DNA of 64,000 bases from the NCBI RefSeq assembly GCF_900182605.1, contig NZ_FXTB01000001.1, positions 620,001 to 684,000 on the forward strand. The letters run 5' to 3'. The notes under the pieces were generated by a model that did no database searches, was not told the origin of the DNA, and saw only the letters and a program-made list of their open reading frames with translations. Origin of the DNA: Saccharicrinis carchari (GTDB lineage Bacteria > Bacteroidota > Bacteroidia > Bacteroidales > Marinilabiliaceae). This document shows, one piece after another, positions 5,793-28,040 of this stretch; position 1 is the first letter of the stretch; the number at the start of each line of letters is the position of its first letter. A program made the translations under genes and the position numbers.

Positions 5793-6937
5793 TATTCTAA
5801 GCGGATTTTATATTTTTTGATACTTAAAACGATAAAAAACACGGTCATCCCCAACAGGATAAGCGTCTCTTTCCAAAGGAACTCAAGCCCCACACCTTTA
5901 ATCATCACCCCTTTTAAAATCAGGTTAAACCATTTGGCCGGAATTATATTACTGATGGCCTGCAACGGCCAGGGCATGCTGGCAATGGGAAAAATAAAAT
6001 CACTTAAAAGAATGATGGGGAGCATCAACCCCATAAGCGAAATCATCATGGCGGCTTGCTGCGTTTTAGAAATAGTGGATATAAAAATACCCAGCGATAG
6101 GGCACAAAGGATAAACAAAACGGTTTCCAGGGCCAGCAAAAAATAACTGCCCTGCACAGGCATCCCAAATACAATAAAACCCAACAATAATATAACGATG
6201 GCGTTGATAATGGATAAAAATATATAGGGGAACACCTTGCCAATAATAACCTGAAAGGGTTTTAAAGGCGAAACCAATAGCACTTCCATAGTGCCCTGCT
6301 CCTTTTCGCGGGCTATGGAGATGGAGGTCATCATGGCCGACACCAGCATGAGGATTACCGTCATTACGCCGGGGAGGAAGTTGAAAACGCCTTTCAGTTC
6401 CGGGTTAAAAAACATCCGCGAACGCACTTCTATCGGCACAGTGGCCGTTGCGCCCTGATTAATTTCGCGTTGATAATCCTGCAAAATGGACTGGACGTAA
6501 TTGGTGATGGTGTTGGCCATATTGGGGTCGGTGGCATCGCTGATGATCTGCACATGGGTCCGATTCATGGATTGTAGATTTTTTGCGAAATCTTTTTCAA
6601 ATACCAACACAGCCTTCACTTCGCCCTTTTTAAAAATAGATTCTATTTGCTGCTCGCTGCTTACGATATTTTTTATATCGAAATAGGGCGAAGCACTTAT
6701 TCTGTTTATGATATGGATGGTTTCCGGATCTTTGGATTTATCCAGGATGCCCATGTTTACATTTTTGATTTCGTTGGTAATGGCAAAACCAAAAAGCAGG
6801 ATTTGGGCAATGGGCATACCAAACAGGATAAACATAGAGCGTTTGTCCCTGAATATATGATAAGCTTCTTTTTTCACGAATCCCTTAAACCGTTTAAAGT
6901 TTGTGCCGGAGAATTTTATTTTAAAATTATTCAACAT
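5792..6937 (-). CDS. ABC-2 type transporter permease, first subunit
   Basis: Inner-membrane ABC exporter subunit. I chose ATG at 6937 (MLNNFKIKF...) because it overlaps the ATPase stop as ATGTTGAATAA, while the longer frame to 6982 runs 55 bases into the ATPase gene. About 381 residues: an N-terminal cytoplasmic stretch with KKEAYHIFRDKRSM, one helix (MFILFGMPIAQILLFGFAI), an extracytoplasmic domain, then a C-terminal helix bundle preceded by SIAREKEQGTMEVLLVSPL, the typical coupling segment of ABC2_membrane_3 proteins such as YbhS. It pairs with the next permease and the two ATPases. Confidence 0.92.
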   Translation of the reverse strand: MLNNFKIKFSGTNFKRFKGFVKKEAYHIFRDKRSMFILFGMPIAQILLFGFAITNEIKNVNMGILDKSKDPETIHIINRISASPYFDIKNIVSSEQQIESIFKKGEVKAVLVFEKDFAKNLQSMNRTHVQIISDATDPNMANTITNYVQSILQDYQREINQGATATVPIEVRSRMFFNPELKGVFNFLPGVMTVILMLVSAMMTSISIAREKEQGTMEVLLVSPLKPFQVIIGKVFPYIFLSIINAIVILLLGFIVFGMPVQGSYFLLALETVLFILCALSLGIFISTISKTQQAAMMISLMGLMLPIILLSDFIFPIASMPWPLQAISNIIPAKWFNLILKGVMIKGVGLEFLWKETLILLGMTVFFIVLSIKKYKIRLE

Positions 6938-7664
6938 TTCGTGCCAGTTTTTGGAATACCCCGTCCATGGAGGACGTATCAAATTGCTTCTTTAAATTTT
7001 TTGGAGAGTCCAGGGCTTCAATCCTTCCCTCCACCATAATGGATACGCGATCGCAATATTCCGCTTCGTCCATATAATGGGTGGTTACAAAAATGGTGGT
7101 TCCTTTATTGGCCTCGGCATAAATCATCTCCCAAAACTGCCGCCGGGTGATGGGATCCACACCACCTGTGGGTTCATCCAGAAAAACCACTTTGGGCTCG
7201 TGCAACAAGGCCACCGAAAAGGCCAGCTTTTGTTTCCATCCCTGCGGCAGCGAACCCACCTGCTTTTTGGCCACCCCTTGCAGACCAAGTTTTTCTATTA
7301 CCGCCTCTCCCCTTTCCTTAATCTCCTTTCGCGACAAACCATAAATTCCCCCAAAAAAGGTGATGTTTTCCATGATATTGAGGTCGTTGTACATCGAAAA
7401 TTTTTGACTCATATAGCCGATGGTCTTTTTTACTTTCTCGGCTTGTGTATTCACGTCGAAACCGTTTACGCTGGCCTTGCCGGAGGTGGGCTTTGATATG
7501 CCTATCAGCATTTTCATGGCGGTGGTCTTGCCGGCCCCGTTGGCTCCCAGGAAACCGAATATTTCCCCTTTCCCGGTCTCGAAACTAATGCGGTCCACCG
7601 CGGTAAAACTCCCGAATTTTTTAGTGAGTTCTTTTACTACGATTGCTTTTTCTATCTCTCTCAT
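6927..7664 (-). CDS. ABC exporter ATP-binding protein, second ATPase
   Basis: Cytoplasmic ATPase, 245 residues. Walker A is GANGAGKTT (about 39-47), Walker B VVFLDEPTGGVDP (about 160-172) and the H-loop is VTTHYMDEAEYCDR. The ABC signature is the variant LPQGWKQKLAF in place of LSGGQ; this LPxGWxQ form is typical of the second ATPase half of YbhF-type exporters. Its start overlaps the upstream ATPase stop by four bases (7661-7664). In E. coli YbhF the two ATPases are fused in one chain, here they are separate genes. Confidence 0.93.
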   Translation of the reverse strand: MREIEKAIVVKELTKKFGSFTAVDRISFETGKGEIFGFLGANGAGKTTAMKMLIGISKPTSGKASVNGFDVNTQAEKVKKTIGYMSQKFSMYNDLNIMENITFFGGIYGLSRKEIKERGEAVIEKLGLQGVAKKQVGSLPQGWKQKLAFSVALLHEPKVVFLDEPTGGVDPITRRQFWEMIYAEANKGTTIFVTTHYMDEAEYCDRVSIMVEGRIEALDSPKNLKKQFDTSSMDGVFQKLARNVE

Positions 7665-8581
7665 TCTTCTGCCTCCTTTTGTTCCGACAGCGCCATAAAT
7701 ACATCCTCAATCCCGGCCTCGGTTTGTGCTATTTTTATCTCCTCGTGCCCTTTTTCTTCCAGGTATTCCCGTAATCTTTTTTCCGAAAAAATAGGGCTGG
7801 AATGGGTATAATGAATGAATTCGCCAAAAGCATACACGCTCTTATTTCCTTTAAAACCTTTTAAATCGCCAATGAGCTGATAGATGTTTTGGGCAGCTAC
7901 CTTGTACAGCGGGTCTTTATGCTTCGCAACAATATTTTCAGGTGTATCCACCCCAAGGATTTCGCCATCCTGTATCAAAGCTATCCTGTCGCACAGTGCA
8001 GCCTCGTCCATGTAAGGCGTAGATACCAATACCGTAATACCTCTATCGTTGAGGCGTTTGAGCATGTCCCAAAATTCTTTGCGCGAAACAGGATCCACAC
8101 CGGTGGTGGGTTCATCTAAGAAAAGCACTTCGGGTTTGTGAATCAGAGCGCAGGAGAGCGCCAATTTTTGTTTCATGCCCCCTGAAAGATCCCCGGCACG
8201 TCGCTTTTTAAAAGGCTCTATTTGAATATAAATGTCTTTTATCAAATCGTAATTCTCCGCCACCGTAGTGCCAAAAATTGTAGCAAAAAAATCCAGGTTC
8301 TCCTCTACGCTCAAATCCTGATACAGCGAAAACCGCCCCGGCATATAGCCCACGGCCTTGCGTATGTCGCGGTAATCTTTCACCACATCCCTACCGGCTA
8401 CACTTGCCGTTCCTTCATCGGCAAAAAGCAGGGTAGTGAGAATACGGAACAGGGTAGTTTTACCCGCGCCATCGGGGCCAATCAAACCAAACAGCTCGCC
8501 GGGTTTAACCTCAAAGGTAATATCGCGCACTGCTTGCACCGCTTCGTACGACTTGCTGATATGTTGTATTTTTATGCCCAT
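7661..8581 (-). CDS. ABC exporter ATP-binding protein, first ATPase
   Basis: Cytoplasmic ATPase, 306 residues. Walker A GPDGAGKTT (about 35-43), canonical signature LSGGMKQKLALSCAL, Walker B VLFLDEPTTGVDP and H-loop VSTPYMDEAALCDR, where the switch histidine of the usual TTHYM is replaced by Pro (STPYM). That form is common in the first ATPase of YbhF-like pairs. A C-terminal extension of about 80 residues (KHKDPLYKVAA... to AEE) follows the nucleotide-binding domain. The two ATPases likely form a heterodimer driving the two downstream permeases. Between this gene and the adaptor are 209 bases holding short repeats. Confidence 0.93.
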   Translation of the reverse strand: MGIKIQHISKSYEAVQAVRDITFEVKPGELFGLIGPDGAGKTTLFRILTTLLFADEGTASVAGRDVVKDYRDIRKAVGYMPGRFSLYQDLSVEENLDFFATIFGTTVAENYDLIKDIYIQIEPFKKRRAGDLSGGMKQKLALSCALIHKPEVLFLDEPTTGVDPVSRKEFWDMLKRLNDRGITVLVSTPYMDEAALCDRIALIQDGEILGVDTPENIVAKHKDPLYKVAAQNIYQLIGDLKGFKGNKSVYAFGEFIHYTHSSPIFSEKRLREYLEEKGHEEIKIAQTEAGIEDVFMALSEQKEAEE

Positions 8582-8586
8582 AATTA

Positions 8587-8756
8587 TTATTCAGTGATCA
8601 GTATTCAGTGATCGGTATTCGGTAAACAGTTTGTCCTTTCATAATAGAGATTGACAAGATTTTGTAGCAATTTTAACTTGGAGGCAGCTCTTCCCTCTCC
8701 CATTTTTGGGAGGGAGGGGGAAGTACTACTACGCAGTAGTAGGGATGGGGGTTAAT
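8587..8756. repeat. Short direct repeats and one copy of a dispersed hairpin repeat
   Basis: 8587-8625 holds imperfect repeats of CAGTGATCRGTATTC. 8697-8756 contains, on the minus strand, the dispersed element ATCCCTACTACTGC...GCAGTAGTACTTCCCC also seen near 22564, 62114 and 62477. It is part of the intergenic spacer inside the exporter operon, between adaptor and first ATPase gene. Confidence 0.55.
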
Positions 8757-8790
8757 AAATCTACTGAATTTAAGCTCCGTGCCCTTCACC

Positions 8791-9672
8791 CTATTTAAAA
8801 TAAACCTCCCCGGGCATACCTATTTTCAGACTACCGTCGTTTTTTACTTTGATGTCCATGGCGTACACCAGGTTCACTCGCTCCTCCTTGGTCTGTATTA
8901 TTTTGGGGGTAAATTCGGCCGCAGACGAAATCCAGCTTATCTTTCCCTCATAGCTTTTTGTATCCTTTCCAAAGTCTATACTTACGTTCACCTTTTCGCC
9001 TATTTCAATTTGCGACAGCTGCGTTTGGTTAATGTACACCCGCAGGGTCATTTGTTCCAGGTTGGCAATTTTATACAGGGGTTTGCCAAAAGCGCTTATC
9101 TCTCCGGACTCGGCATATTGGTTTAGTACGGTGCCCTTTATGGGATTGGTGATTTTGCTTTCGTCAATCTGATGCGCTATTTGTGCTATCCGGGCTTCTA
9201 TACTAAGCACCTCATTCATTATGGGTGCATTTTGCGATTTCACGTTATCCATCTTTTTCTGCAGCACCTCCACTTCGCTCGTGGCCCGATCGAGCTGTCG
9301 GCTGGTGGCTGCCTCCTCATCGAACATATTTTGCACCCTGTCCAGTTCCGATTCGGCCGTTTTTAACTGCGATTGTAGCACCGCCATCTGCGACCATACA
9401 TTCCCGGATTTCGACCGCACCACCTCTTTTTGCGCCATAAGTTGCATCTTATTCAAATATAAAGTCATGGTGTCTATGAGTCCCACCACGGTTTTCTCTT
9501 GCAAAAGGCTGCCTTCCTCCAGGTTTAAATACTTTATTTCGCCCCGGGCTTTTGCCGAAACTGTTATCTCGGTGGCCTCAAAATTCCCGTATGCATCGGC
9601 CGTAGGTTCTTGCTTGCAGCCTGTGAATAAAGCGGCAATCAAAATGATAAAAATTAATGTGGGTCGTTTCAT
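8791..9672 (-). CDS. HlyD-family periplasmic adaptor lipoprotein
   Basis: Periplasmic adaptor linking the ABC exporter to the TolC partner, 294 residues from ATG 9672 (MKRPTLIF...). The longer frame to 9720 lacks a sensible N-terminus, while this start gives a signal peptide with a lipobox (LFTGC, Cys about 20). Biotinyl-lipoyl half-motif EATEITVSAKARGEI at about 31-45, a long coiled-coil hairpin (about 75-170) and the second half KGTVLNQYAESGEISAFGKPLYKI follow, then a beta-barrel domain. The order matches YbhG/HlyD adaptors. Confidence 0.9.
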   Translation of the reverse strand: MKRPTLIFIILIAALFTGCKQEPTADAYGNFEATEITVSAKARGEIKYLNLEEGSLLQEKTVVGLIDTMTLYLNKMQLMAQKEVVRSKSGNVWSQMAVLQSQLKTAESELDRVQNMFDEEAATSRQLDRATSEVEVLQKKMDNVKSQNAPIMNEVLSIEARIAQIAHQIDESKITNPIKGTVLNQYAESGEISAFGKPLYKIANLEQMTLRVYINQTQLSQIEIGEKVNVSIDFGKDTKSYEGKISWISSAAEFTPKIIQTKEERVNLVYAMDIKVKNDGSLKIGMPGEVYFK

Positions 9673-9804
9673 ATTTTTGAAATTAGGTAATAGACTATGA
9701 ACACAGGGACACGGAGACACCGAGTTTTTTCTTTTAAAAATCCTTTTTTGTGTTTATTTCCCCATAATCATGGGTGTTTCATGTTTTTGAAATTAGCATC
9801 AACA

Positions 9805-9996
9805 GTTGAACCCCGTTAGGGTTCTATTTATTACTTTCACATACCACGGGTTTTACCCGTGGTTATTCATATTAAATCCTTTCAGGATTTTATTAGCATA
9901 TATTGTAAAGGAACTATGAAATAGTTCAATGTAAATAGCCACGGGTGAAACCCGTGGTACATTCACACAATAGAACAGAACCCCGAAGGGGTTCAA
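9805..9996. repeat. 192-base palindromic intergenic element
   Basis: GTTGAACCCC (9805-9814) is the reverse complement of GGGGTTCAAC (9987-9996). Inside, CCACGGGTTTTACCCGTGG (9844-9862) and a similar CCACGGGTGAAACCCGTGG near 9938-9956 are each palindromes. The whole spacer between adaptor and TolC genes (9673-10064) is thus a folded non-coding repeat. The layout resembles REP/BIME-type elements of Bacteroidota; no transposase is nearby. A related smaller motif lies at 59690. Confidence 0.65.
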
Positions 9997-10064
9997 CTCT
10001 TATTTGGCATTATAAGTCCGACTTTCAGCCCATTTCATATGTTTCAAAACTAATGTATCTCCTA

Positions 10065-11330
10065 TTATTCCTTATATCCCTGTACTATCCTGTAATTAGC
10101 CTTGGCGAGCTCCAACTGCAGCTGGTGTAATTTCTGATTTATGCGGGCACTGTATAATTTGTTAAATTCCGTAAGAAATTCCGAAGCGGTAATGACCCCG
10201 TTCTTTAGTTGTGATTGGCTGCTGGATACAATGGATTGCCTTAGCGCCACAATTTTCCGGTCGGCTTGCAAAAGGGTGCGGTATTTATCTATTTCGTTCA
10301 TGGCCAGTTGCAGTGCCGTGTTGTTGTTCAGTACAAAGGTTTCTTTTTCCGTGGTCATTATTTCCTTCGCAATTTCCAGGGCTTGTTTCTTATCCCTGGT
10401 TCTACCCCAGTCAAAAAAGCGCCACCTTAGCCGGGCACCCACAATATAAAAATCTTCAAAATTATTGTTCAGCATATTCAGTCCGGGATTACCATAACCG
10501 GCTTGTGCAAATCCCAAAAGCCTGGGATAATTCTCGACGCCCATCAATTTCTGACGTTGGGTAAGTTCTTCACTTTTCAAGTCGTAAAACCTCAATTCGG
10601 GACGTTGCAAACCCTTAGCCTGTATAATAGATATGTCCGGTTTTAATAACCTTACGGCCGAATCAATTTCCGCAGATATCAGGGCCGAAAGTTGGTTTAA
10701 AGCGGTTTCCTTGTCCTTTTTTACCCGGATTTTTTCCTGGTGAACCATTAAAAACTCGGCATGTAAAACATTTTTTTCCGATGGCAATACCGTCCCAAAT
10801 TTCACGGCAGAGGCTAACTCACCCAATCGGGCTTCCAATTGCTTTTGCTTAGCCTCCAGCATATCGCTTTGTTCCTGAAGCAACAAGGCATTGAAAAAAT
10901 ATTGGTTTACCCGATTTTTAAGTCCGTACAATGTGACTTCTACCTGTTGCTGCTCGGCTTTTAGTTCGGCCTCTTTCAGGGCAGCGCGCTTGGCAATACT
11001 GTTGCCGTTATAAATAAGTTGCTCTACATCTACGGTTGCCCGATATTGATCCTTGTTGGGAGGGTTAATATTTGTACCGGGCATTTCCAAGGGGATTTTA
11101 ATCACCTCCGACTGCCAGGTGGCACTGCCGTTCAAGCTTAGCTGGGGCAAAGCAGTCTTTCTAATTTCCGATTGTTCGTAATCTGATTTTTCCCCGAGCA
11201 AAGCACTTTGCCGCGACAGGGGATATGCCTTTTCGGCCAGGATGTAACACGCTTCCAAGCTAAGCGGTTCCTGAGCAAAAGCTCCTAAATTCCACATTAT
11301 TATTATCAGTAAAAAAGCCTGTTTCATCAT
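10065..11330 (-). CDS. TolC-family outer-membrane factor of the ABC exporter
   Basis: Outer-membrane exit duct, 421 residues, with signal peptide (MMKQAFLLIIIMWNLGAFAQ). Two internally homologous OEP repeats are visible: the first about 20-215, the second about 225-420, each with long helices (ELKAEQQQVEVTLYGLKNRVNQYFFNALL; ...MTTEKETFVLNNNTALQLAMNEIDKY). It begins four bases inside the upstream TetR gene (11327-11330), so it belongs to the same transcript. Unlike the two OMFs of the RND modules further on, it has no substrate-binding domain. Confidence 0.92.
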   Translation of the reverse strand: MMKQAFLLIIIMWNLGAFAQEPLSLEACYILAEKAYPLSRQSALLGEKSDYEQSEIRKTALPQLSLNGSATWQSEVIKIPLEMPGTNINPPNKDQYRATVDVEQLIYNGNSIAKRAALKEAELKAEQQQVEVTLYGLKNRVNQYFFNALLLQEQSDMLEAKQKQLEARLGELASAVKFGTVLPSEKNVLHAEFLMVHQEKIRVKKDKETALNQLSALISAEIDSAVRLLKPDISIIQAKGLQRPELRFYDLKSEELTQRQKLMGVENYPRLLGFAQAGYGNPGLNMLNNNFEDFYIVGARLRWRFFDWGRTRDKKQALEIAKEIMTTEKETFVLNNNTALQLAMNEIDKYRTLLQADRKIVALRQSIVSSSQSQLKNGVITASEFLTEFNKLYSARINQKLHQLQLELAKANYRIVQGYKE

Positions 11331-11938
11331 TTGTATTTTATCGAGTTGATGATAATTTCTGCCACTTCCGCTTTACGTTGCTCCATGAGTTGCTGAAAGT
11401 CATTTTCGTCGATATGTAGAAAAGCTTTTAACAATGGCTTTGCCAAAAACGGAAAAACATTCAACGACAGAACATTGACAAATAATTTCTCCACCGTGAA
11501 GGATTTTATCTTTTCATCAGGAATTACATCTTCAAGTTGGGCTTTAAATTTCTTAAGGTCGGGGAAAAAGCTGCGAAACTTTAAAATAAAATCGGGACTT
11601 CGGTTAATCTCCTGGATAATAAAATTGGGCAAATACGGATGGTCGGCAATAAATGAAATATAGTTGGAGGTAAAATTCCTAATTTTTTCCTCCAATGATG
11701 AATCATCGTTCAAGGCCTTGTTTAGCTGAAGAGTCAGCAAGGTAAATAATTGGGTAAAAACGGCCTCAAAAAGCTGCTGCTTGCTGCGGTAATAATAATG
11801 TAACATAGCCTTATTGATGCCGGCCTCATCGGCTATTTCCTGCATCCGTGCCCCCTCCATCCCCTTGCTCTGAAACACTTTTTTGGCAGCTATCAAAATC
11901 CGGCCTTCTACATCTTTATCTTTCACTTTTATCGGCAT
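11327..11938 (-). CDS. TetR-family transcriptional regulator of the ABC exporter operon
   Basis: 203-residue repressor. N-terminal helix-turn-helix at about 10-55 (RILIAAKKVFQSKGMEGARMQEIADEAGINKAMLHYYYRSKQQLFEAVF) is typical of TetR/AcrR; the C-terminal ligand domain is unclassified. First gene of a seven-gene minus-strand operon (TetR, OMF, adaptor, two ATPases, two permeases). A perfect palindrome sits 17 bases upstream, over the likely transcription start, so it probably represses its own operon until a ligand, perhaps a pump substrate, binds. Confidence 0.93.
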   Translation of the reverse strand: MPIKVKDKDVEGRILIAAKKVFQSKGMEGARMQEIADEAGINKAMLHYYYRSKQQLFEAVFTQLFTLLTLQLNKALNDDSSLEEKIRNFTSNYISFIADHPYLPNFIIQEINRSPDFILKFRSFFPDLKKFKAQLEDVIPDEKIKSFTVEKLFVNVLSLNVFPFLAKPLLKAFLHIDENDFQQLMEQRKAEVAEIIINSIKYK

Positions 11939-12223: not shown

Positions 12224-15200
12224 TTATTCAGCATTTTTCATCGGCTGCCTCACCTTAAACATCAATTTATACATAAGCGGTACAAACACCAGGGTGATAA
12301 CGGTGGCAAACAGTAAACCAAAAATAATGCCTATGGCCATGGGCTTCCACATATCGCCTCCCCCCAGCCATAACGGGATCAATCCCAGCGAAGTGGTAAA
12401 GGTGGTGAGCAGTATGGGTCGGAAACGCTCATTGGCCGCCGTAACGATGGCTTCATAGGGTTGGCGTTTTAGCTCTTCTATTTCCATTTGTATTCGGTCG
12501 ATTAATACAATGGCATTGTTGATGACGATGCCGGCAAGAGATATGATACCCAGAAATCCGGTAAAACTCATGGTGGCTCCGGTGATAAGCAGGCCACCCA
12601 CCACACCTATGAAACCCAGGGGAATGGTGCTGACGACGATAAATGTTTTGCGCATGGAGTTAAATTGCAACACCAGCAAAAATAAAATGATAAACATAGA
12701 CAGGGGCAGTTTGTCGGCTACGGCACTCATGGCTTTTGCGCTTCCTTCCGATTCGCCACCATACGCATAGGTATAGCCCATCTTCCAGCTTTCGCTCTCC
12801 TTTTTCATAAAAGGTCTGAGTTTTGCCATTACCTCGGTTGCCGTTGCCCCTTGCGCCAGTTGCGAGGTGACGGTAAGGGTGCGGGTGAGGTCGCGACGGA
12901 GTATCTTGGCAAACTCCCACTGCGGAACGATAGTGGCCACCTGTGCCAACGGAACATTTTTACCGCTGTTCTGCCCAAAAATATTCAGGCTTTCAATTTG
13001 CAGATAATCCATCTCCTCGCCTCCTTCGGCACGCATGATAATGGGTATGGTGCTGTCTTCCAGGCGGAATTCGCCCACATGGTAACCCGTCAGCACCGTA
13101 TTGAGCGACACGGCAATATCCTGATTGGTGAGCCCCGACTGGCTAAGGCGCGCCTGGTCTATTTCTATAAAAAACTTTTTTATTTTTGGTCCCCAACTGT
13201 CCGACACATTACTTGACTGGGGTATTTGATGTAAAAAATCTTTCACTTCGGAAGCAATCCTAAAAAGTTCGCCGGGGCTGCTGCCCGATAGTCGAACTTC
13301 AATGGGTGTAGCTGCACCACCGCCCGAACCTAATTTTTTCACTACTACCTCGGCATTGGGCAAGTTAAAAAAACTGTAACGCTCAAGTGCGGCAATAACC
13401 ATTTCGTTATCATCGCCCGATGTGGTGTTGATGAGCATGTGGGCGTAACCCGAATTGGCCTCGCCGGGAAAATAACCCAGGTCGTAGGATTTTGGGCCTT
13501 TACCGATGAACGACGACCAGCCCGTAACGCCTTTAGCGCCCTCCTCGCCTACCAGTAGGCTGTCGCGCAGGAAATCTTCTATCTGTGCAATTTTACTTTC
13601 GGTGGTTTTGATGTGCGTCCCCAGGGGCAGGTTCAAATCCAGGGTAATGAGGTTACGCTCGCTGTCGGGCATAAAAACAAAAGGTAAAAAAGTAAATCCC
13701 ACCAGGGAGAGGATCAACAAGACACCTGTAGTAATCAGTATTAACGATGGCCGCTTTAACGAGAAGGTCAACAGCCCGTTATAATGCCTGTTAAGCCGAT
13801 CGAAAATGGACGACTTCTCTTGTTTTTTCTTTTTTATGCGAATAAATGCCACCGCCAATAGAGGTATGATTGTGAGGGTCATGATCCACGAAGATAGCAG
13901 GGCCAGGGTGATGACCGAGAAAAGTTGCCCCATTATTTCGCCCATGACAGAGGCGGCCAGGAAGAACGAAAGGAAAGCGGCGGCGGTGGTCAACGAAGAT
14001 ATGAGCAAGGGAATCATCAGCTCCTTGCTGGAGGCCAATGCCGCATCAACGGCCTTTTCCCCTTTCTCCATCTTTACTATCATCGATTCGGCCATCACAA
14101 TGGCATTGTCAACCAACATACCTAGCGCCATAATCAAAGCGGCCAGGGAAACCTGGTTGAGGCCCACACCAAACTGGTTCATCATAAGCAAGGTTAGAAC
14201 AATGGCAAAGGGGATGAGAGAAGCCACCACAAGGCCCGTGCGCAGACCAAGGAAAAGAAGCATTACAAGCAGCACGATAACAATACTTTGCGTTACGTTG
14301 CTCATAAAGTCGCTGATACTATTTTGCACATCCACATCTTGCGATGCTATGCGCGTAATCTCTAAGCCCACCGGCAGGTTCCGGCTGAACTGCCGCACAG
14401 CTTCGTTTACATCACTGCCCAAATCTACGATATTGGCACCGTCCTTTAACGAGATAGACAAAACCAGCGCCTCCGAGCCATTAATCTTAACCATGGATTG
14501 ACGTGGAGAAGCATAAGCCCGCTCCACTTCCGTGATATCCCCCAGCATAACTGTTCCGCCCTTATTGCCTATGGGTATAAGCATTTTCCGTATGTCCTCA
14601 ACGGACTCAAAACTACCCGATGGCTCCAGTATCAGGCGTTCGTCCTCATAATTTACTTCTCCGGCAGGTATAATAATATTGGTTGATGAAATAATGTTGC
14701 GTAGCTGGCTGCTGGTCAGGCCCAGCTGGGCAAGCCTGGCATTGTCGAACCGGATGAAAACGGGCTTCTCCTGCACACCAACAATTTCTACCTTGGCCGA
14801 GTTTTCGAGCTTTATGAGGGTGTCGCGTAAGCTTTCGGCGTAATCCTTCAGTTCGGTGTACTCGAAGCCATCGTTGCTAAGGCCCAGTTGGATGCCATAG
14901 ACCACCCCGAGATCCTCATCGTTAACCGTGGGGCCGTGAATGCCTGCGGGAAAATCGCCCCTGATGGTTTCAATTTTTCGTCGCAAACGATCCCATATAG
15001 GCTGCAGGTCCCTGGCAGGGGTACTTTCTTTAAGCGATACCGAAACCACGGAGAGGCCGGTACGCGATTCGCTGGCAATGTAATCCACCTCGGGAATCTC
15101 CTGCGCCACCTTTTCAATCTTATCGCTGATCAGCATCTCTATCCGCTCCGGACTGGCTCCCGGAAATGCCGTAACCACAGTAGCCACCCGCACCGTATAG

Positions 15201-15316
15201 GGCGGCATGCTGTTGCGCGGCAAGTCGTTGTAACTCGCAATGCCCAGAGCGATAATTAAAAAAAGAAGCGTATAGGTTATCCTGTTTTTTTTTATGGCTA
15301 CACCTGTAATGTTCAT
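12224..15316 (-). CDS. RND efflux permease (module A)
   Basis: Inner-membrane proton-driven efflux transporter, 1030 residues, full length for the HAE/AcrB-like family. N-terminal helix (TYTLLFLIIALGIASY), first porter domain with PPYTVRVATVVTAFPGAS, TM2-6, second porter domain and TM8-12 can all be traced. TM4 reads ALGMLVDNAIVMAESM (about 395-412): the first relay Asp is present and the second is Asn, as in many acriflavin-resistance relatives. TM10 has GIVINNAIVLID where AcrB has the relay Lys. Last gene of module A, 226 bases downstream of its adaptor. Substrate unknown. Confidence 0.94.
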   Translation of the reverse strand: MNITGVAIKKNRITYTLLFLIIALGIASYNDLPRNSMPPYTVRVATVVTAFPGASPERIEMLISDKIEKVAQEIPEVDYIASESRTGLSVVSVSLKESTPARDLQPIWDRLRRKIETIRGDFPAGIHGPTVNDEDLGVVYGIQLGLSNDGFEYTELKDYAESLRDTLIKLENSAKVEIVGVQEKPVFIRFDNARLAQLGLTSSQLRNIISSTNIIIPAGEVNYEDERLILEPSGSFESVEDIRKMLIPIGNKGGTVMLGDITEVERAYASPRQSMVKINGSEALVLSISLKDGANIVDLGSDVNEAVRQFSRNLPVGLEITRIASQDVDVQNSISDFMSNVTQSIVIVLLVMLLFLGLRTGLVVASLIPFAIVLTLLMMNQFGVGLNQVSLAALIMALGMLVDNAIVMAESMIVKMEKGEKAVDAALASSKELMIPLLISSLTTAAAFLSFFLAASVMGEIMGQLFSVITLALLSSWIMTLTIIPLLAVAFIRIKKKKQEKSSIFDRLNRHYNGLLTFSLKRPSLILITTGVLLILSLVGFTFLPFVFMPDSERNLITLDLNLPLGTHIKTTESKIAQIEDFLRDSLLVGEEGAKGVTGWSSFIGKGPKSYDLGYFPGEANSGYAHMLINTTSGDDNEMVIAALERYSFFNLPNAEVVVKKLGSGGGAATPIEVRLSGSSPGELFRIASEVKDFLHQIPQSSNVSDSWGPKIKKFFIEIDQARLSQSGLTNQDIAVSLNTVLTGYHVGEFRLEDSTIPIIMRAEGGEEMDYLQIESLNIFGQNSGKNVPLAQVATIVPQWEFAKILRRDLTRTLTVTSQLAQGATATEVMAKLRPFMKKESESWKMGYTYAYGGESEGSAKAMSAVADKLPLSMFIILFLLVLQFNSMRKTFIVVSTIPLGFIGVVGGLLITGATMSFTGFLGIISLAGIVINNAIVLIDRIQMEIEELKRQPYEAIVTAANERFRPILLTTFTTSLGLIPLWLGGGDMWKPMAIGIIFGLLFATVITLVFVPLMYKLMFKVRQPMKNAE

Positions 15317-15542: not shown

Positions 15543-16640
15543 CTACTTTAGCAACATCACCTTACGCCCGTCGTACAGGGAGTTTACGCCGGCAACGGCT
15601 ACCACGTCGCCTTCGTTGAGTCCGGATAGGGCATGGAAACCGCCCGAAAAAAGAGCACCTGTTTCAACGATGGTTTTTTTGGCCACGTAATGGTCGCCCT
15701 CTGCCTTGAGCACAAACACAAAGTTTCCCTGAAAATCCTCTGATACGGCCTTAAAAGGAACCGTGAGTAAAGTTTTGTTGGTTTTATCGCCAAAACTAAA
15801 AGTTACATTGGCCGGCATACCCGGCCGAATATCGTCCGAAGGATTGGAGAGTTTAACCACAACGGGATAGGTAAGCGATTCGCCGATGGAATACCCCACT
15901 TCGGAGATGATGCCCTCAAACGATTTATTTTGTATGGATCTAAAAGTTACCGAAACGCTTTCGCCCTGTACTATTTGTGCAATATACACCTCGGGCACCC
16001 CCACGTTAATTTCAATATCATCAATACGCGAACTAATGACCACAACGGGGGTTCCGGCCTGCACAAACTCGTTCACTTCAGCATTTACCGCTGTTACAAT
16101 GCCGTTGGCAGGTGCAATAATACGGGTGTATCGGAGTTGAGCCCCTTGCAGATCCAGGGTCTTTTGAGCTGTTTGAAAATTGGAACGGGCACTCGAAAAT
16201 GCGCCTTTGGCCTGTTCGTAATCGCTTAGCGAGGCATTGCTGGTGGCGTAAAGCTGTTTGGCCCGCTCCAGGCCCGAGGCGGCGGTCTGCAATTGTATCC
16301 TGGCATTATCCAAACCCGCCCTGGCTTGCTCGTAGGCAATTTGCGTATCCTTAGCGTCGATACTCGCGATGAGCTGCCCTTTTTTTACTTCGTCGCCAGC
16401 CCTCACGCCCATGGCAAGTATAAGGCCGCTTGTCCTAAAGCTGAGTTTTGCCTCAGAGCCCGATTGCGATACTCCAATAAAAGTACGTTCCTGAATGCCC
16501 CCGGTCATTTCGACCCTGGCATATTTTACCGGTTTAAGTTGTTCATCCTCCTGCTTGTCCTTGCTGCCGCATCCCGACAAAAAAATTGCGGCCAGCAAAA
16601 GTGTATAGAGGGAATGTGGAAATGAGCTATTTTTTTTCAT
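15543..16640 (-). CDS. RND periplasmic adaptor lipoprotein (module A)
   Basis: 365-residue MFP subunit. Signal peptide with lipobox FLSGC (Cys about 24), then the lipoyl half-motif SEAKLSFRTSGLILAMGVRAGDEVKKGQLIASID (about 57-90), a coiled-coil hairpin about 95-150 (QARAGLDNARIQLQTAASGLERAKQLY), the second lipoyl half APANGIVTAVNAEVNEFV, beta-barrel and membrane-proximal domains to the end (GDVVAVAGVNSLYDGRKVML). It lies between the fused OMF and the permease. Intergenic 15317-15542 has degenerate CGGTTATCAGTAAT-type repeats and a GAACGGTTCTG inverted pair. Confidence 0.93.
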   Translation of the reverse strand: MKKNSSFPHSLYTLLLAAIFLSGCGSKDKQEDEQLKPVKYARVEMTGGIQERTFIGVSQSGSEAKLSFRTSGLILAMGVRAGDEVKKGQLIASIDAKDTQIAYEQARAGLDNARIQLQTAASGLERAKQLYATSNASLSDYEQAKGAFSSARSNFQTAQKTLDLQGAQLRYTRIIAPANGIVTAVNAEVNEFVQAGTPVVVISSRIDDIEINVGVPEVYIAQIVQGESVSVTFRSIQNKSFEGIISEVGYSIGESLTYPVVVKLSNPSDDIRPGMPANVTFSFGDKTNKTLLTVPFKAVSEDFQGNFVFVLKAEGDHYVAKKTIVETGALFSGGFHALSGLNEGDVVAVAGVNSLYDGRKVMLLK

Positions 16641-16862: not shown

Positions 16863-19232
16863 CTATTCGTTCTGCACGTCATATTGTTCTATCATAGATT
16901 GGTTAAACCGTTGGTTGAGTTGGAATATGGCTTCCGGTGATTGCAACAAACTGAAAAATCCGATGGCATGTTCCATTTGGATATGTGCCACCAATAACTT
17001 GTATATGGAAAAGGCATAGGCCTGCTTGGTTTGCAAGGCTGCTTTTTGTGCATCGATAAGCTGAGTAATGGATACCGTTCCCTGCTTGTAATTTTCCTGA
17101 ACCAGTTCAAAGTTTTGTTGCGCATTTTTCGACGACAGTTGCGAAAAATGTAAATTGGTATGCGCAACGGTTAGGCGAAGGGCTTTTTCGCGAACATTCA
17201 GTGCCAAGTCGTTGTTCAGGCGTTCTTCCTGCATCTCAATCTGCTCGCGGTCGATGATGGATTTTTTTAGGTTGATACGCCTCCGGTTACCACTAAACAG
17301 TGGGTACGAAACGCTAAGGCCTATGTTCCACGACAGATAGTTAAAGGAAGATCCCGGCGGTGCCGAAGATGCCTTGCCGCCGCGCCACCAAACATCGTCG
17401 GCTTGCGATTGGATGGCCACCGTGGGAGTATAAAACTTCCGTTGGCTGATGCTCCGTTGCCGTTCTATAACATCCATACTGGCTTCAATCTGCTTTTTGG
17501 CAGGATGGTTTTGCTGGGCTTCGCCGATCAAAAATTGCGTTACCATCTTTAATCTTTCGGGCGTATTAAAATACTCCTCCCCAAAATTACTCACATGTTT
17601 TTTGTAAAACTCGCCCCTAATGGACATATCCTCAATTTTAAAATCCTCCGCCAGCGTATTGTTCAACAAATTATTAAGGTTTAAGTGGGCCAGCATTTCG
17701 TTGCTACTTGCTTGTATAAGTGTTTGGTTGGCATTGGCTACTTCACTTTTCCAACGGAAAACATCGGCATTACTGCTCGAACCTACGTTTACCCTAATTT
17801 GTGCCAGCTCCAGGTTTTGCTTCGACGATTGATAATTCTCCTTTTGGATGAGCACGTTGGCCTTGGCCTCCAAAATATTGAAGTACGCCACAAAAACATC
17901 TAAAATCACATTGTTTATTTCTTGCTGGCTGGCATACTGTTGGGCCTCGCTAAGGTATTTTTGTATTTTAATGTTGGCGATAGCCTCGTCCGAATAAACC
18001 AGCTGGCGCAAACTTGCCGTACCCGAAACGCTTTGTTCCGATTGCCCTATCGCTGCCATGGCTCTTTCCTGGTTTATTTGCATGGCCGTGGCCGATAGGT
18101 TTATGTCGGGCAAATATTGCGATCGGGCGGCTTTTATTTCCTGGGCGGCATATTCATCATCCTTTTTGCTGATGCTTATATTCAGGTTGGTGGAGATGGC
18201 TTTTTCGATTACCTCTTCGATGCTGTATTCTTTCCGTCCATTCGCTAACCCATCTTCCAAAAGCTCGGCCGAAAACAGCACATCAAAAGAAGGTGAGAAC
18301 CCGATTTTTTTTGCCGTGGACAGGTTCAGATAAATCTGTTCCCGGGTGTTCAGCGCCACGGGCATATTAGCCATATCCTCGCCCCGCAGCACCCCATCTA
18401 CCATTACAGCCGTTTTCTTTAGTAACTGATCCATACCCGTATTGCCCGATATGGAAGCCATAAGCCCTTCGTTCACTTGCCATTTGGTCATCGTAAAAGA
18501 GGGAAGGTTCCTTTCTATCAGGTAATCGGCAATTTGCTGTATCTCATCGCCCGGAAACTTGTAGGGCATGGCAATATAGACCCCTTGCGTTTGTGCGGGC
18601 ATCTTATTTAACGAGTTGTGAATATCGTTGAGCAAAACAGGGCTAATGTTTACTTTCAAACCTTCATCTTCCATAAGCAATTCAACCTCTTCGGAAGTCT
18701 TGTTATCGGCGATGGCGTTGTGGGTTGCACTATCGAAAAGTATGGTGATGTTATCGATACGGGCCAAATTTTTAAAAGCAACCAGCTCCTCCCTAATGTT
18801 TTGCGAGGCCAGCAAATAGCTAAAGTTGGAGATGCCGGACGTTCCTGTCAGCGAATGAGGAACACCTTGCACGTCAGGATCGATAACGCCCAAAACAAGA
18901 GTGGGTACGGGATAGTTTTTGATTTGCAAAATGCCGTTGAGGCTCACGGCCCCCATCACAAGTATGATGTTACAACGGGGGGTAAGTTTTTGGTACGATT
19001 GCACAACAGCTTCGGGTGTGCGCTGAGCCATAAAAAGGTTGTCGTCCTCTAACTGGATGCTGTATGCACTGCCCACCGTTTTTTGAATCTGACCGATTAA
19101 TTCGGTGTGCAGAAAATCCGACATGACACCGGCCATCTCAAAATCAGATACCACCCCTATCTTAACCGTAGTTTGCGAGTGCGTAAAAATAGGAAACAAT
19201 AATAGGAGGGTGGTCGTGAAAATTAACTTCAT
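16863..19232 (-). CDS. Fused periplasmic substrate-binding domain and TolC-type outer-membrane factor (module A)
   Basis: 789 residues, almost double a normal OMF. A signal peptide (MKLIFTTTLLLLFPIFTHSQ) is followed by a domain of about 300 residues (about 22-325) resembling the ABC_sub_bind (PF04392) periplasmic-binding fold: VKIGVVSDF, NIILVMGAVSLNGIL, PTLVLGVIDP, GTSGISNFSYL, NITILFDSA, AYIAMPYKF-like GVYIAMPYKFPGDEI and LPSFTMTKWQVNEGLMAS. From about 335 the chain is a two-repeat TolC-type OEP (EEVIEKAISTNLNISISKKDDEY...; second repeat from about 590). First gene of module A. No cognate ABC permease is present. Binding-domain ligand and function are unknown; a role in substrate capture or sensing at the duct is inference. 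Confidence 0.85.
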   Translation of the reverse strand: MKLIFTTTLLLLFPIFTHSQTTVKIGVVSDFEMAGVMSDFLHTELIGQIQKTVGSAYSIQLEDDNLFMAQRTPEAVVQSYQKLTPRCNIILVMGAVSLNGILQIKNYPVPTLVLGVIDPDVQGVPHSLTGTSGISNFSYLLASQNIREELVAFKNLARIDNITILFDSATHNAIADNKTSEEVELLMEDEGLKVNISPVLLNDIHNSLNKMPAQTQGVYIAMPYKFPGDEIQQIADYLIERNLPSFTMTKWQVNEGLMASISGNTGMDQLLKKTAVMVDGVLRGEDMANMPVALNTREQIYLNLSTAKKIGFSPSFDVLFSAELLEDGLANGRKEYSIEEVIEKAISTNLNISISKKDDEYAAQEIKAARSQYLPDINLSATAMQINQERAMAAIGQSEQSVSGTASLRQLVYSDEAIANIKIQKYLSEAQQYASQQEINNVILDVFVAYFNILEAKANVLIQKENYQSSKQNLELAQIRVNVGSSSNADVFRWKSEVANANQTLIQASSNEMLAHLNLNNLLNNTLAEDFKIEDMSIRGEFYKKHVSNFGEEYFNTPERLKMVTQFLIGEAQQNHPAKKQIEASMDVIERQRSISQRKFYTPTVAIQSQADDVWWRGGKASSAPPGSSFNYLSWNIGLSVSYPLFSGNRRRINLKKSIIDREQIEMQEERLNNDLALNVREKALRLTVAHTNLHFSQLSSKNAQQNFELVQENYKQGTVSITQLIDAQKAALQTKQAYAFSIYKLLVAHIQMEHAIGFFSLLQSPEAIFQLNQRFNQSMIEQYDVQNE

Positions 19233-22762: not shown

Positions 22763-23329
22763 CTATAAAACCCTAAGCGTTTGTAATTCCCGAATCATCT
22801 CATTGATAAGGTGCTCATCCTCAACAAACGAACGAAAACTTAATATTATGCTATTAACCAACAACTGGGTCGACTGCTTCGTTTTGAATCGCTTTTCCCG
22901 TTTTCCTTCATCAATTATCTTCGATAGGTAATACTCCACGCTATCCCTTATGCGCATAAAGGTTTTAGCTATATTTTTATTTTTTCTATACAGGCTATCA
23001 TCAAAAATAATGGATCGATAATGGGGATTTTTCTCAAATATAAAATACAAACGCCTAAAGAACAGTTGCAGCTCTATGTCGGGCGACTGGTTTTCATGGC
23101 TCAACTCCCGGGTTAGCTTAATGAAATTAGCTTCCAGGTCGAGAAGAAGCAACAGAAAAACATCATCATCCTTAGTAATAAAAGGAAGCAAATCATTTTC
23201 ACCCACATCCAATTCACGGGCCAGTCTCACAACCGAAAGTCCCTTTGTTCCATGCCTTCCTACAATCTCCCTTGCTTTTTCTATTATTGTGTTGTTATCT
23301 ATTCTCATCATGCTTTCATTTTTTGCCAT
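22763..23329 (-). CDS. TetR-family regulator downstream of RND module B
   Basis: 188 residues. N-terminal HTH about 10-55 (NNTIIEKAREIVGRHGTKGLSVVRLARELDVGENDLLPFITKDDDVF) is recognisably TetR-like but the recognition helix is atypical (GENDLLPFI in place of the usual SxxxLYxHF). The C-terminal ligand domain is helical. It lies 84 bases downstream of the module B permease on the same strand, suggesting it is the last gene of that transcript and may regulate it. The start could be either of the adjacent Met residues 7/8. Confidence 0.82.
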   Translation of the reverse strand: MAKNESMMRIDNNTIIEKAREIVGRHGTKGLSVVRLARELDVGENDLLPFITKDDDVFLLLLLDLEANFIKLTRELSHENQSPDIELQLFFRRLYFIFEKNPHYRSIIFDDSLYRKNKNIAKTFMRIRDSVEYYLSKIIDEGKREKRFKTKQSTQLLVNSIILSFRSFVEDEHLINEMIRELQTLRVL

Positions 23330-23413: not shown

Positions 23414-26400
23414 TCAAGCCTCTAACATTTCTCGTTTAAATTCATACGCCTTAAATTTCACCTTATAAAACAGACTATAAATAACGGGCACAAAAAACAG
23501 CGTGATAATGGTGGCAAACAACAGTCCCGATATGATGGCCAGCGTAAGGGGTTCCCACAGCAATCCGCCACCAAAATACAGTGGCAACATACCCAATGAG
23601 GTGGTGAAAGTAGTAAGCAGCACCGGGCGGAAACGATTATGTACGGCCAACATAATAGCATCGCGGCGATCCACGTCAGGGTTCTCGGCGATCTCCACAT
23701 CAATGCGGTCGATGAGTATAATAGCATTGTTCACCACAATGCCGGCCAGGGCAATAACGCCCAGTATGCCAAAGAAGCTCACGAACGATCCGCCGATAAA
23801 CCAACCCGCCACCACACCTATCATGCCCAGAGGTATGGCCAACAAAATAATGGTCGTCTTGCGTAAGGAGTTAAACTGCATCACTAGCAACATTACGATT
23901 AGGAAAAATGCCAGTGGCAAATTTGAGAAGATAGCGCCCAGATTTTCGTTGGTATCTTCATCTTCACCCCCAAATTCATATCCGTAGCCATTGGGCCACG
24001 TGGCCTTTTGTTCTTTCATCCATGGCCCGATGGCTTCAAAAATGTCGTCGGCATTGTATCCCGGTTGCAGGTAAGCACCCACCGTCATGGTTCGTTTTAA
24101 ATCTTTACGTATGACCTTGGCAAACTGCCAATCAACCTTTACATCGGCCACCTGAGCAAGCGCTACGTTTTGGCCGGTTGCAGCCGAGTAGATATTAAAT
24201 GCCTTGATGGTAGCAATGTCGTGTTCGGCGCTGTTCCTGTCCTTCATATAAATGGGAATGCGTTCGTCTGTATCGCGGAAATCATCAATTTTAATACCTG
24301 ACAATCCCGTGTTCAATGCCATAGCAATCTCCATATTGGTAAGTCCGGCACGTTGCGCTTTGTCAGGATCTATCTGCACCATCAGTTTTTGTATTTTCGG
24401 CCCCCAGTCATCGGTAATATTTCTGGTTCCTTTGATGGTCACCAGTTTACTTTTCACTTTATCGGAAATGAAAGCCAGCTGCTCGGGATTACGGCCCGAA
24501 ATACGTATTTCGACGGGCGTGCCCGATGCGCCTGCACCCGTAAGGCGGTTCACGCGGATATCGGCATCAGGAATATGGTTAAAACAGAAACTATCTACCT
24601 TCGCAATGATGTAATCGTTATCGGTATCGCCGGTGGTGTTAAGCAGCATGTGTGCATAATGCGATACAGCTTCATTTTTAAAATAGCCCAAATCATAGGG
24701 TTCCGGGCCTTCGCCAATGAATGACGAAAAGTCGAGCACGCCGCGCTTGCCTTTATGTTTTTCGGGTTTTACCAGCAACGAATCCAAGATATAAGCACCG
24801 ATGGCATCTACTGCTTGCTCGGTATATTCAATCTGCGTGCCTTCGGGGAATATGATATCCACCGTTACCAGGTTACGGTCACTATCAGGCACCAGCTTAA
24901 ACGGAAGCAATGGCATAAGCGACAAGGCTACTACGAATAGTGCCACAATAATTCCAACAAATAAAAGCGGTTTTTTTAAAACCCGATAGAGCACACCATT
25001 GTACCATAAGTTTACTTTGCGCATATTCCGGTCGACGGCATTCTCCTTTTTTGTACCACCGGATTTATTTGTTTTTATAAGTACCAGCGCCAGCAGCGGG
25101 ATAAAGGTGAAAGCCATAAACCATGAACTAAGCAAGGTAACGCTGACCACCCAAAACAGAGGCGACGATATTTCGCCCATGGGTGTTTCGGCCAATGCAA
25201 AAGGCAAAAATGCCGACGAGGTGGTCAGGGTTGAGCTAAGCAGCGGTACGATCAACACCTTGCAAGAGTGTACACCCGCCTGAAAGGTGCTCATCCCCTT
25301 GCCCATGGCCACCATCATGGATTCGGACATAACAATCCCGTTATCCACCAATAGTCCCAGCGATATGATGAGGGCCGCCAGCGATACTTTGTTGAATCCC
25401 AAATTGAGCACGCCCAAAAAGAAAAAAGCGGAGAGGATGACCATGGGTAACAAAGCGGCCACCAATGAACCCAGCCGGAAACCCATGAAAAACAACATGA
25501 CGGCCAGCACAATAAGCACACTTTGCAGCAGGTTGATCAAAAAATCGTTTACCTGACCTTCAACTACCTTATCCTGAGAGGCTGACCTCACCACCTCCAC
25601 CCCTAAGGGTAGTTTAGCGTTGATGCGGGGCAGCGCCTTGTCCACATCTTCACCCAGGCGCACAATATTAGCCCCGTCTTTAAGTGAAATAAAAAGTGCG
25701 ATGGCCGGCTTACCGTTGATACCCACAATTTTTTGGCGCGGCGATACATAATCGCGATAGATGCGCGTGGTAATGTCTTCTAAAAAAACGGTAGCTCCTG
25801 TGGATGTGGGTATCAATATTTTTTTCAGGTCGTTCAGGGAATTAAAATTACCCGAGGGCATAAGCGAAATACGTTTGCGCCCCATATTTATCTCACCGCC
25901 GGGATAAAGTATGTTGGTGGCCGAGATGATATTCCGCAATTTTGCGGCATTCAAGCCGTAACGCGACAATTGTTTATCATCGAACTCAATAAAAATACGT
26001 TCGTCCTGCACGCCACCGAACTTTATTTTGGAGGCATCGGGTAGCAGCAACAGTTCCTCACGTACCTCTTTGGCATAGCCTTCGAGTTGGTTATAAGGCA
26101 CCCCGTCGCCGGTAACACCTAGGATGATGCCGAACACCGTACCTATATCTTCCGTTTTTATCATCGGCCCCATAATACCCTGTGGCAGCAGCGGCTTAAG
26201 GTCTTCCACATTATTCCGCAGATGATCCCAAACGGACTGGAGTTGATTTTGGTTTACCTGAACCTTCAGCTCTACGGTAATGACCGATATTCCATCGCGC
26301 GATTCGCTCCCGATGGTTTTTACTTCGGCTATCTCGCGTATCACCTCTTCCAGGGGGTCGGTCACCAGCGCCTCTACCTGGCGGGCATCGGCACCCGGAA

Positions 26401-26551
26401 ATTTTGTGACCACCGTACCAATGCGTATGGTATAAGGTGGCATACTGTCGCGCTCCAGTTTAAAATAATTGGCAACACCGATAATGGCCAATATTAAAAA
26501 AACAATGAGCGTAAAGCGCGTATTTTTTAAGGCGATATTTGTTAAGTTCAT
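23414..26551 (-). CDS. RND efflux permease (module B)
   Basis: 1045 residues, homologous to the module A permease along its length but divergent. N-terminal helix FTLIVFLILAIIGVANYF, porter domain PPYTIRIGTVVTKFPGADARQVE, TM4 SLGLLVDNGIVMSESM (about 400) with Asp followed by Asn, and TM10 GIVVNNAIILID. Large loop with GKRGVLDFSSFIGEGPEPYDLGYF, shared almost word for word with module A (SFIGKGPKSYDLGYF). Full length. Upstream is a 403-base spacer with a composite inverted repeat before the adaptor gene. Confidence 0.94.
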   Translation of the reverse strand: MNLTNIALKNTRFTLIVFLILAIIGVANYFKLERDSMPPYTIRIGTVVTKFPGADARQVEALVTDPLEEVIREIAEVKTIGSESRDGISVITVELKVQVNQNQLQSVWDHLRNNVEDLKPLLPQGIMGPMIKTEDIGTVFGIILGVTGDGVPYNQLEGYAKEVREELLLLPDASKIKFGGVQDERIFIEFDDKQLSRYGLNAAKLRNIISATNILYPGGEINMGRKRISLMPSGNFNSLNDLKKILIPTSTGATVFLEDITTRIYRDYVSPRQKIVGINGKPAIALFISLKDGANIVRLGEDVDKALPRINAKLPLGVEVVRSASQDKVVEGQVNDFLINLLQSVLIVLAVMLFFMGFRLGSLVAALLPMVILSAFFFLGVLNLGFNKVSLAALIISLGLLVDNGIVMSESMMVAMGKGMSTFQAGVHSCKVLIVPLLSSTLTTSSAFLPFALAETPMGEISSPLFWVVSVTLLSSWFMAFTFIPLLALVLIKTNKSGGTKKENAVDRNMRKVNLWYNGVLYRVLKKPLLFVGIIVALFVVALSLMPLLPFKLVPDSDRNLVTVDIIFPEGTQIEYTEQAVDAIGAYILDSLLVKPEKHKGKRGVLDFSSFIGEGPEPYDLGYFKNEAVSHYAHMLLNTTGDTDNDYIIAKVDSFCFNHIPDADIRVNRLTGAGASGTPVEIRISGRNPEQLAFISDKVKSKLVTIKGTRNITDDWGPKIQKLMVQIDPDKAQRAGLTNMEIAMALNTGLSGIKIDDFRDTDERIPIYMKDRNSAEHDIATIKAFNIYSAATGQNVALAQVADVKVDWQFAKVIRKDLKRTMTVGAYLQPGYNADDIFEAIGPWMKEQKATWPNGYGYEFGGEDEDTNENLGAIFSNLPLAFFLIVMLLVMQFNSLRKTTIILLAIPLGMIGVVAGWFIGGSFVSFFGILGVIALAGIVVNNAIILIDRIDVEIAENPDVDRRDAIMLAVHNRFRPVLLTTFTTSLGMLPLYFGGGLLWEPLTLAIISGLLFATIITLFFVPVIYSLFYKVKFKAYEFKREMLEA

Positions 26552-26954: not shown

Positions 26955-28040
26955 TCATTCATTATCATCGATAAGCTTCACCTTCCGCCCTTCGTACAAA
27001 GCGCTAAGGCCGGCCGTAATCACAATGTCGCCTGTTGAAAGGCCTTCCAGAATACCGTATCCATCAGGAGTCAGCTCTCCGGTGATAACATCCTGCCTGG
27101 CGACCATATACCCATCTGATGCTGCATCCTTTCGAGCCAGATAAACAAAATCTTTGTCATCGGAATGGCTCACCGCATCGGTAGGTATTATCACGGTTCT
27201 CTTGCTGTTAGTTTGTGTATCCAAAGGGATATGGACCGTTCCTGTCATGCCCGGAAGCAGTTGATCCGTCGGCTCCGAAAGTCTGACTATTACCGGATAA
27301 GTGGAAGCCATGCCTGTACCTGTGCCTACCTCCGACACAGTTCCGTTAAACACCCTGTCGGCCAATGTGCCAAAGCTTACTGTCACCCCCTGTCCGCTTT
27401 TCACCTGCCCGATTACATTTTCGGGCACGGCCGTCCTCACCTCCATATGATTTGTGGAAGAAAACGCCACAACAGGATGCCCGGCTCCGGTCATCTCGTT
27501 TTCACCGGCCATGATGGCCGTTATGGAACCATCGTAAGGCGCTAAGAGAATAGTGTAATCCAGCTGGTTCTTGGCGGCACGTACCTGCGCATCGGCTGTG
27601 CTGGCCATGGCCACCGCCGACTCGTACTGTGCCTTGGCCCTTTCGTAATCGCTGAGCGAAGCATTATTACCGACATACAGGTTCTCAATCCTTTGGTATG
27701 CCGACCTGGCCGCTATCAGTTGCACTTGCGCATTTTTTTGCGACATAACGGCTTTGCTATAATTAATATGGTAGTCAGTGCTGTCCAAACGCGCAATCAC
27801 CTGGCCTTTTTTTACACTGTCGCCCAGTTCAACGGCTATCGCTTCGATGTTGCCCCCTACCCTAAAGCTCAGTTTTGCTTGCTTGCTGGCTTGCGAAATA
27901 CCGGCAAAGGAACGTACCTCGTTTACCGAACCCTTTCCGACAACCTGATAAAAAACCGGGCGTATCTGTTCCTCAGTTTCTTGTTTACCTCCGCAAGCCG
28001 TTAGTAGCAGAGCGCATAAAATGATAAGATATGTTTTCAT
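26955..28040 (-). CDS. RND periplasmic adaptor lipoprotein (module B)
   Basis: 361 residues. Lipobox LLTAC (Cys about 16). Lipoyl half-motif SKQAKLSFRVGGNIEAIAVELGDSVKKGQVIARLD (about 52-86), coiled-coil hairpin about 90-150 (SQKNAQVQLIAARSAYQRIENLY), second half LAPYDGSITAIMAGENEMTG, beta-barrel domain, C-terminus GDIVITAGLSALYEGRKVKL. About the same size as module A's adaptor and clearly paralogous (identical LSDYE turn). Connects the fused OMF to the permease. Confidence 0.93.
   Translation of the reverse strand: MKTYLIILCALLLTACGGKQETEEQIRPVFYQVVGKGSVNEVRSFAGISQASKQAKLSFRVGGNIEAIAVELGDSVKKGQVIARLDSTDYHINYSKAVMSQKNAQVQLIAARSAYQRIENLYVGNNASLSDYERAKAQYESAVAMASTADAQVRAAKNQLDYTILLAPYDGSITAIMAGENEMTGAGHPVVAFSSTNHMEVRTAVPENVIGQVKSGQGVTVSFGTLADRVFNGTVSEVGTGTGMASTYPVIVRLSEPTDQLLPGMTGTVHIPLDTQTNSKRTVIIPTDAVSHSDDKDFVYLARKDAASDGYMVARQDVITGELTPDGYGILEGLSTGDIVITAGLSALYEGRKVKLIDDNE

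Follow-up and report, generated by a model that had tools for sequence, protein, structure and literature searches.

Genes of the window and parts of the fusion protein

The window, that is, the whole 64-kb stretch of DNA analyzed here, contains two gene modules, which we refer to as modules A and B. Both encode, in the same order and on the minus strand, a substrate-binding domain (SBD) fused to an outer-membrane factor (OMF), a periplasmic adaptor (MFP), and an RND permease. In module A, the fusion gene (16863-19232) is the first gene on its strand. It is followed by the MFP gene (15543-16640), whose product matches RND_mfp TIGR01730 with 236 bits and carries a lipoprotein-like signal, and by the RND permease gene (ACR_tran; 12224-15316), which has the TM4 motif VDNA. 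The fusion gene thus leads an RND operon, as the earlier note had it. The intergenic gaps within this module are approximately 220 bp. Module B lies 9 kb from module A and comprises a paralogous fusion of 804 aa (28164-30578), with an architecture like that of the module A fusion and 26% identity to it over the full length, an MFP (26955-28040), and an RND permease (23414-26551) that is 48% identical to its module A counterpart.

TetR-family genes are located close to both modules. One (31506-32081, minus strand) lies upstream of module B, and another belongs to an ABC-2 exporter operon (4671-11938, minus strand) that encodes TetR, an ordinary OMF of 421 aa, HlyD, two ABC ATPases, and two ABC-2 permeases. 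Downstream of the module B RND gene there is also a weak TetR-like ORF (22763-23329, minus strand), which scores 13 bits and falls below the cut-off. The ABC-2 operon, with its own OMF (4671-11330), directly adjoins module A on the downstream side as a natural SBD-less neighbor, and the earlier statement that no ABC permease is nearby is accordingly inexact. The system is an ABC-2 type exporter, not a binding-protein-dependent importer. Throughout the fusion operon neighborhoods tabulated, including those of the window, importer permease and ATPase genes were absent and the partners were export machinery.

The ORF of the module A fusion is bounded exactly at 16863-19232 on the minus strand and encodes a single protein of 789 residues, assigned from the ORF together with Pfam, AlphaFold, and Foldseek. 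The protein begins with a signal peptide of approximately residues 1-19 (19176-19232), recognized in the sequence and devoid of a lipobox cysteine. Residues 20-325 (18258-19175) form a PF04392-like type-I periplasmic-binding domain. Next comes a linker (residues 326-337; 18222-18257), delimited using the full-length model and relatives, and the remainder is a TolC-type OMF with two OEP repeats (residues 338-789; 16866-18221). All four parts are encoded on the minus strand. The linker between SBD and OMF measures 11-13 residues in 90 of 90 relatives. Comparison with the PF04392 and PF02321 profiles detected both families in the module A protein: ABC_sub_bind (PF04392) at residues 69-321 with 42.3 bits (cut-off 25.9, E 7e-11), and, C-terminal to it, the two repeats of OEP (PF02321) with 145 bits. 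In module B and many relatives, PF04392 scores below the Pfam cut-off, yet the domain is matched by the family HMM.

Structure prediction supports the same assignment. The AlphaFold2 model of the N-domain, built from an alignment of 59 relatives, has a mean pLDDT of 90 and a pTM of 0.85. Its top PDB matches in Foldseek are 3LFT, 6HNI, and 3LKV (E 3e-15 to 4e-14, probability 1.0), above all other folds, so that the closest structures are PF04392 binding proteins rather than members of an unrelated fold. The full-length model, a monomer with a pLDDT of 85.6, a pTM of 0.70, and an uncertain linker, matches TolC structures best (E 1e-19) and PF04392 binding proteins next. When 90 fused domains were compared with importer domains at the HMM-HMM level, the match had a probability of 99.2 and an E-value of 1e-19. 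Because Pfam, the N-domain and full-length models, the structure matches, and the HMM-HMM comparison agree, the protein is a real fusion of a PF04392-type domain to a complete TolC-type OMF. Both the ABC_sub_bind-like N-terminus and the two-repeat OMF proposed in the earlier note are thereby confirmed.

The fusion resembles the TolC/OprM OMFs of RND pumps (PF02321, TC 1.B.17) in its two OEP repeats, in the TolC fold of the model, and in its MFP and RND neighbors. It differs from them by the addition of an N-terminal binding domain of 300 residues. As a TolC-type OMF, it would form a trimeric channel in the outer membrane. OMFs average approximately 472 aa (PMC4827864). We found no published description of an SBD-OMF fusion in searches of open-access full text, and the fusion section of a survey of outer-membrane pores does not list it (PMC4827864). 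Automatically compiled databases may already list the pairing of the two domains.

Distribution and descent

A scan of GTDB genome contigs yielded 80 loci that were kept. The fusion is encoded in all 80, with MFP and RND genes downstream in 77. It occupies a single reading frame in 79 of the 80 (at L090 it is cut by the contig end), and one copy is split by an in-frame TAG. The median intergenic gaps in 76 relatives are 14 and 18 nt, which indicates that SBD-OMF, MFP, and RND form an operon in most of them. An assembly or gene-calling artefact, for which we found no support, is refuted by the occurrence of the same one-frame fusion in independent genomes of several phyla, and we regard it as practically eliminated. 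This split copy (L082) had appeared to preserve an ancestral split of SBD and OMF into separate frames; this candidate was rejected, as a lone in-frame TAG between the two points to a broken fusion or an error.

Of 100 related genomes, 59 belong to the same family, and 8 of these carry the fusion, with scores of 242-294 bits. Ordinary OMFs come next at 56 bits, and across this gap from 242 to 56 bits no SBD-less relative of the fused OMFs was seen in the 100 genomes. The question of how often the fusion occurs in Bacteroidota can be answered from a sample of 297 genomes, of which 14 carry it (~5%, the window's own genome included). In a sample of Flavobacteriaceae, the family around Winogradskyella, the count is 31 of 201 (~15%); a 32nd match, consisting of scraps with stops, was left out, and a short frame of 413 aa holds one of the matches counted. 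In the class around Marinicella, the Gammaproteobacteria, it is 13 of 185 (~7%). Further occurrences are in Desulfuromonadales, Gemmatimonadota, Eisenbacteria, Hydrogenedentota, Campylobacterota, and, with some probability, Fusobacteriota. Overall, the fusion recurs far beyond chance.

Several individual loci deserve mention. On plasmids of Cetobacterium (Fusobacteriota), TolC-family proteins of approximately 725 aa head MFP-RND operons (L212:7446-9626 and L213:5278-7449). The N-domain of the L212 protein is shortened and divergent and is missed by both Pfam and the family HMM, while its sequence pattern is similar. In a gemmatimonadote (L068:6007-7884), the fusion gene lies 3' of a same-strand gene for a membrane glycerophosphodiester phosphodiesterase, with no same-strand MFP or RND gene nearby. 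Weak matches in the phylum sample were left uncounted, two of them (G295, G315) being permease-fused importers and one (G371) a TonB receptor. Three short gammaproteobacterial matches (L196-L198) were considered as a standalone SBD beside an OMF and rejected: none has an OMF in its vicinity, and one of them, L197, is an ordinary importer. In two Bacteroidota loci (L165:3212-6049 and L166:6034-9777), an ABC importer permease carries two or three fused PF04392 domains, with the ATPase gene adjacent.

In a tree that includes 22 ordinary OMFs, the OMF parts of 45 fusions group together in a single clade with a support of 100/100. This is consistent with a single fusion event among the OMFs sampled, a set from which ordinary OMFs of other phyla are absent. 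The RNDs partnered with fusions likewise form one clade but for one member, the third RND of the window genome, which is paired with an ordinary OMF. Mapping the partner labels on the RND tree requires 2 changes, compared with a mean of 19.6 when labels are shuffled. The TM4 motif VDN is present in 47 of 47 sampled RNDs linked to an SBD-OMF; other RNDs have VDD or VDN. Across 90 loci, the four parts (SBD, OMF, MFP, and RND) have pairwise distances that correlate at 0.90-0.96, with a permutation maximum of approximately 0.25, a sequence-level result that shows joint descent of the four parts and not contact between them. The SBD is the fastest-changing part, with a mean identity of 36% compared with 46, 49, and 61% for the others. 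Modules A and B fall in different old branches of the trees and are therefore not a recent duplication. In both the SBD-OMF and the RND trees, the copies from Marinicella and from an Alcanivoracaceae MAG (L053, L078, L040) nest inside Flavobacteriaceae, suggesting transfer of the whole module between phyla.

The binding site of the fused domain

The nearest characterized proteins are the TrpX-type PF04392 proteins S. pneumoniae SP1069 (3LFT), V. cholerae VC_1101 (3LKV), and C. difficile CD0873 (6HNI), with which the fused SBD shares its fold, its HMM family, and the N/G/N core. In contrast to these proteins, it is not secreted alone, has no importer partner, and has lost most equivalents of T108, D152, N233, and Y262. 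In TrpX relatives, Thr108, Thr129, Asp152, and Asn233 hold an aromatic amino acid, and Tyr262 or Gln sets the specificity (PMC6816091, PMC9382623). Across 90 fused domains, the position of Thr108 is taken by Val, Ile, or Leu (Thr in 5 of 90), that of Asp152 by Glu, Thr, or Ser, that of Asn233 by Phe in 60, and that of Tyr262 by Leu, Phe, or Ile in 71 (Tyr in 4). The equivalent of Thr129 is mostly Asn or Asp by HMM-HMM alignment, in an uncertain register one column off that of MAFFT, where it is hydrophobic. Thr108 and Tyr262 are kept in 9 of 9 importer-type controls. The PF04392 core residues N136, G256, and N303 are near invariant in the fused domains.

Since the amino-acid contacts of TrpX are mostly replaced, a free amino acid held in the TrpX fashion is probably not the ligand. 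The ligand would probably be less polar than an amino acid; the loss of contacts fits such a ligand and also a silent or dead pocket. The same substitutions bear on whether the SBD might retrieve a compound for uptake and have no export function at all. PF04392 proteins elsewhere do serve importers, including the permease-fused ones of the same phylum (L165, L166). With importer contact residues lost and, in the window and the other neighborhoods tabulated, export genes (RND plus MFP, or ABC-2 plus HlyD) in place of importer permeases, we consider a role in import highly improbable.

Exchange of the export motor and a possible role of the domain at the duct

The earlier note had raised the question of whether the fusion always accompanies RND genes. 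This holds for most loci, as described above, and fails for a defined set. In 6 of 12 further gammaproteobacterial fusion genomes (L202, L205-L209), no RND gene adjoins the fusion. Instead, a protein of ~910 aa with ATPase-ATPase-permease architecture and an ABC-2 permease precede it, along with HlyD where the stretch reaches; at L205 the gene order differs and the fusion comes first. L202, L205, and L209 were checked with Pfam; the assignment of L206-L208 relies on size, gene order, and N-terminal sequence. In Sulfuricurvum kujiense, plasmid pSULKU01 carries TetR, fusion, HlyD, rbbA, and permease in that order. An RbbA/YhhJ-type ABC exporter thus stands in place of RND at L202, L205-L209, and L211. 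ABC-2 exporters of the YhiI-RbbA-YhhJ type are the inner-membrane partner of the fusion in the six gammaproteobacterial loci and pSULKU01, whereas both fusions of the window pair with RND.

This swap of partner to HlyD and an RbbA-type exporter points to a conserved function on the OMF side. The SBD-OMF is the conserved unit and the motor the variable one, which is the strongest argument for a domain that acts on the duct. It also bears on substrate capture, in which the tethered SBD would bind an efflux substrate in the periplasm and concentrate it near the pump or pass it to the transporter. The fold of ABC-importer binding proteins and an RND partner that is nearly one clade and shares its descent with the SBD speak for capture. 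Against it stand the pairing with ABC-2 exporters and the short, fixed linker, which would place the SBD far from the RND entrance if the geometry follows TolC-AcrAB structures. We therefore regard capture as rather improbable. Of the roles suggested in the earlier note, loading substrate into the pump is weakened by the swap and the linker of 11-13 residues, and gating or sensing is preferred.

Docking of the adaptor is usually credited with controlling TolC-type ducts. As the reading we favor, though tentatively and with some reserve, we propose that the OMF-borne domain regulates or stabilizes the exit duct, probably in a ligand-dependent manner. In this reading, the exit duct of a tripartite exporter has permanently captured a PF04392-type domain at its periplasmic N-terminus. 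Judging from homology to TolC and OprM, an OMF trimer would carry three SBDs outside the duct near its equatorial belt, the level at which the N-terminus leaves the OMF. The 11-13-residue linker would hold them there, at a distance from the RND. Closure of the SBD on a small ligand could then bias duct opening or adaptor docking, so that engagement of the duct would await the ligand or a suitable state of the envelope, and the SBD would not primarily feed the RND. Both ligand binding and gating by the N-domain are inferred.

A periplasmic partner in this position is already known from E. coli: YbjP, a lipoprotein of the TolC pumps, docks 3:3 on the equatorial domain of TolC (PMC13095208, PMC13082787), the domain about which the TolC opening and entrance helices pivot (PMC13095208). 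Like the fused SBD, if our placement is right, YbjP is a separate periplasmic domain at the TolC equator that acts independently of the motor; unlike it, YbjP has the DUF3828 fold, is unfused and lipid-anchored, and is reported without an allosteric role (PMC13082787, PMC13095208). That an allosteric role of YbjP was reported as unsupported (PMC13082787) counts against duct regulation.

With YbjP as a near functional counterpart in the same position (PMC13082787), the SBD could be a structural collar that stabilizes or positions the OMF trimer, independently of ligand, at the equator or against peptidoglycan. In a non-lipidated OMF, it would stand in for the lipidated N-terminus of OprM or for YbjP on TolC. 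A convincing N-terminal lipobox is indeed absent from the fusion OMFs: at most 3 of 106 fusion proteins have lipobox-like matches, of which two resemble ordinary signal peptides and one lies in an unsure start region. Loss of the amino-acid contact set and a role independent of the inner-membrane motor also favor a collar, as does the reduced N-domain of Cetobacterium, which fits a structural role and counts against duct regulation. A collar would, however, need less than an intact, two-lobed binding fold of 300 residues maintained across great distances with near-invariant N136, G256, and N303, and ordinary OMFs of the same genomes manage without an SBD. On balance, we consider a purely structural role unlikely, though it retains appreciable weight.

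If the duct-regulating reading is correct, these pumps would receive direct periplasmic input through a conserved domain that is part of the duct, and the soluble SBD would offer a handle for finding the pump signal or substrate through ligand screening. More doubtful, yet conceivable, is the broader proposal of a class of tripartite exporters, with RND and ABC-2 motors and in several phyla, whose duct is ligand-gated by a captured nutrient-binding domain. One recurring fusion is combined with two unrelated kinds of export motor in several bacterial phyla, and this would provide a natural case for separating the role of the duct from that of the motor. Plasmid copies are annotated as "ABC transporter substrate binding protein" or "TolC family protein", a naming that hides the fusion.
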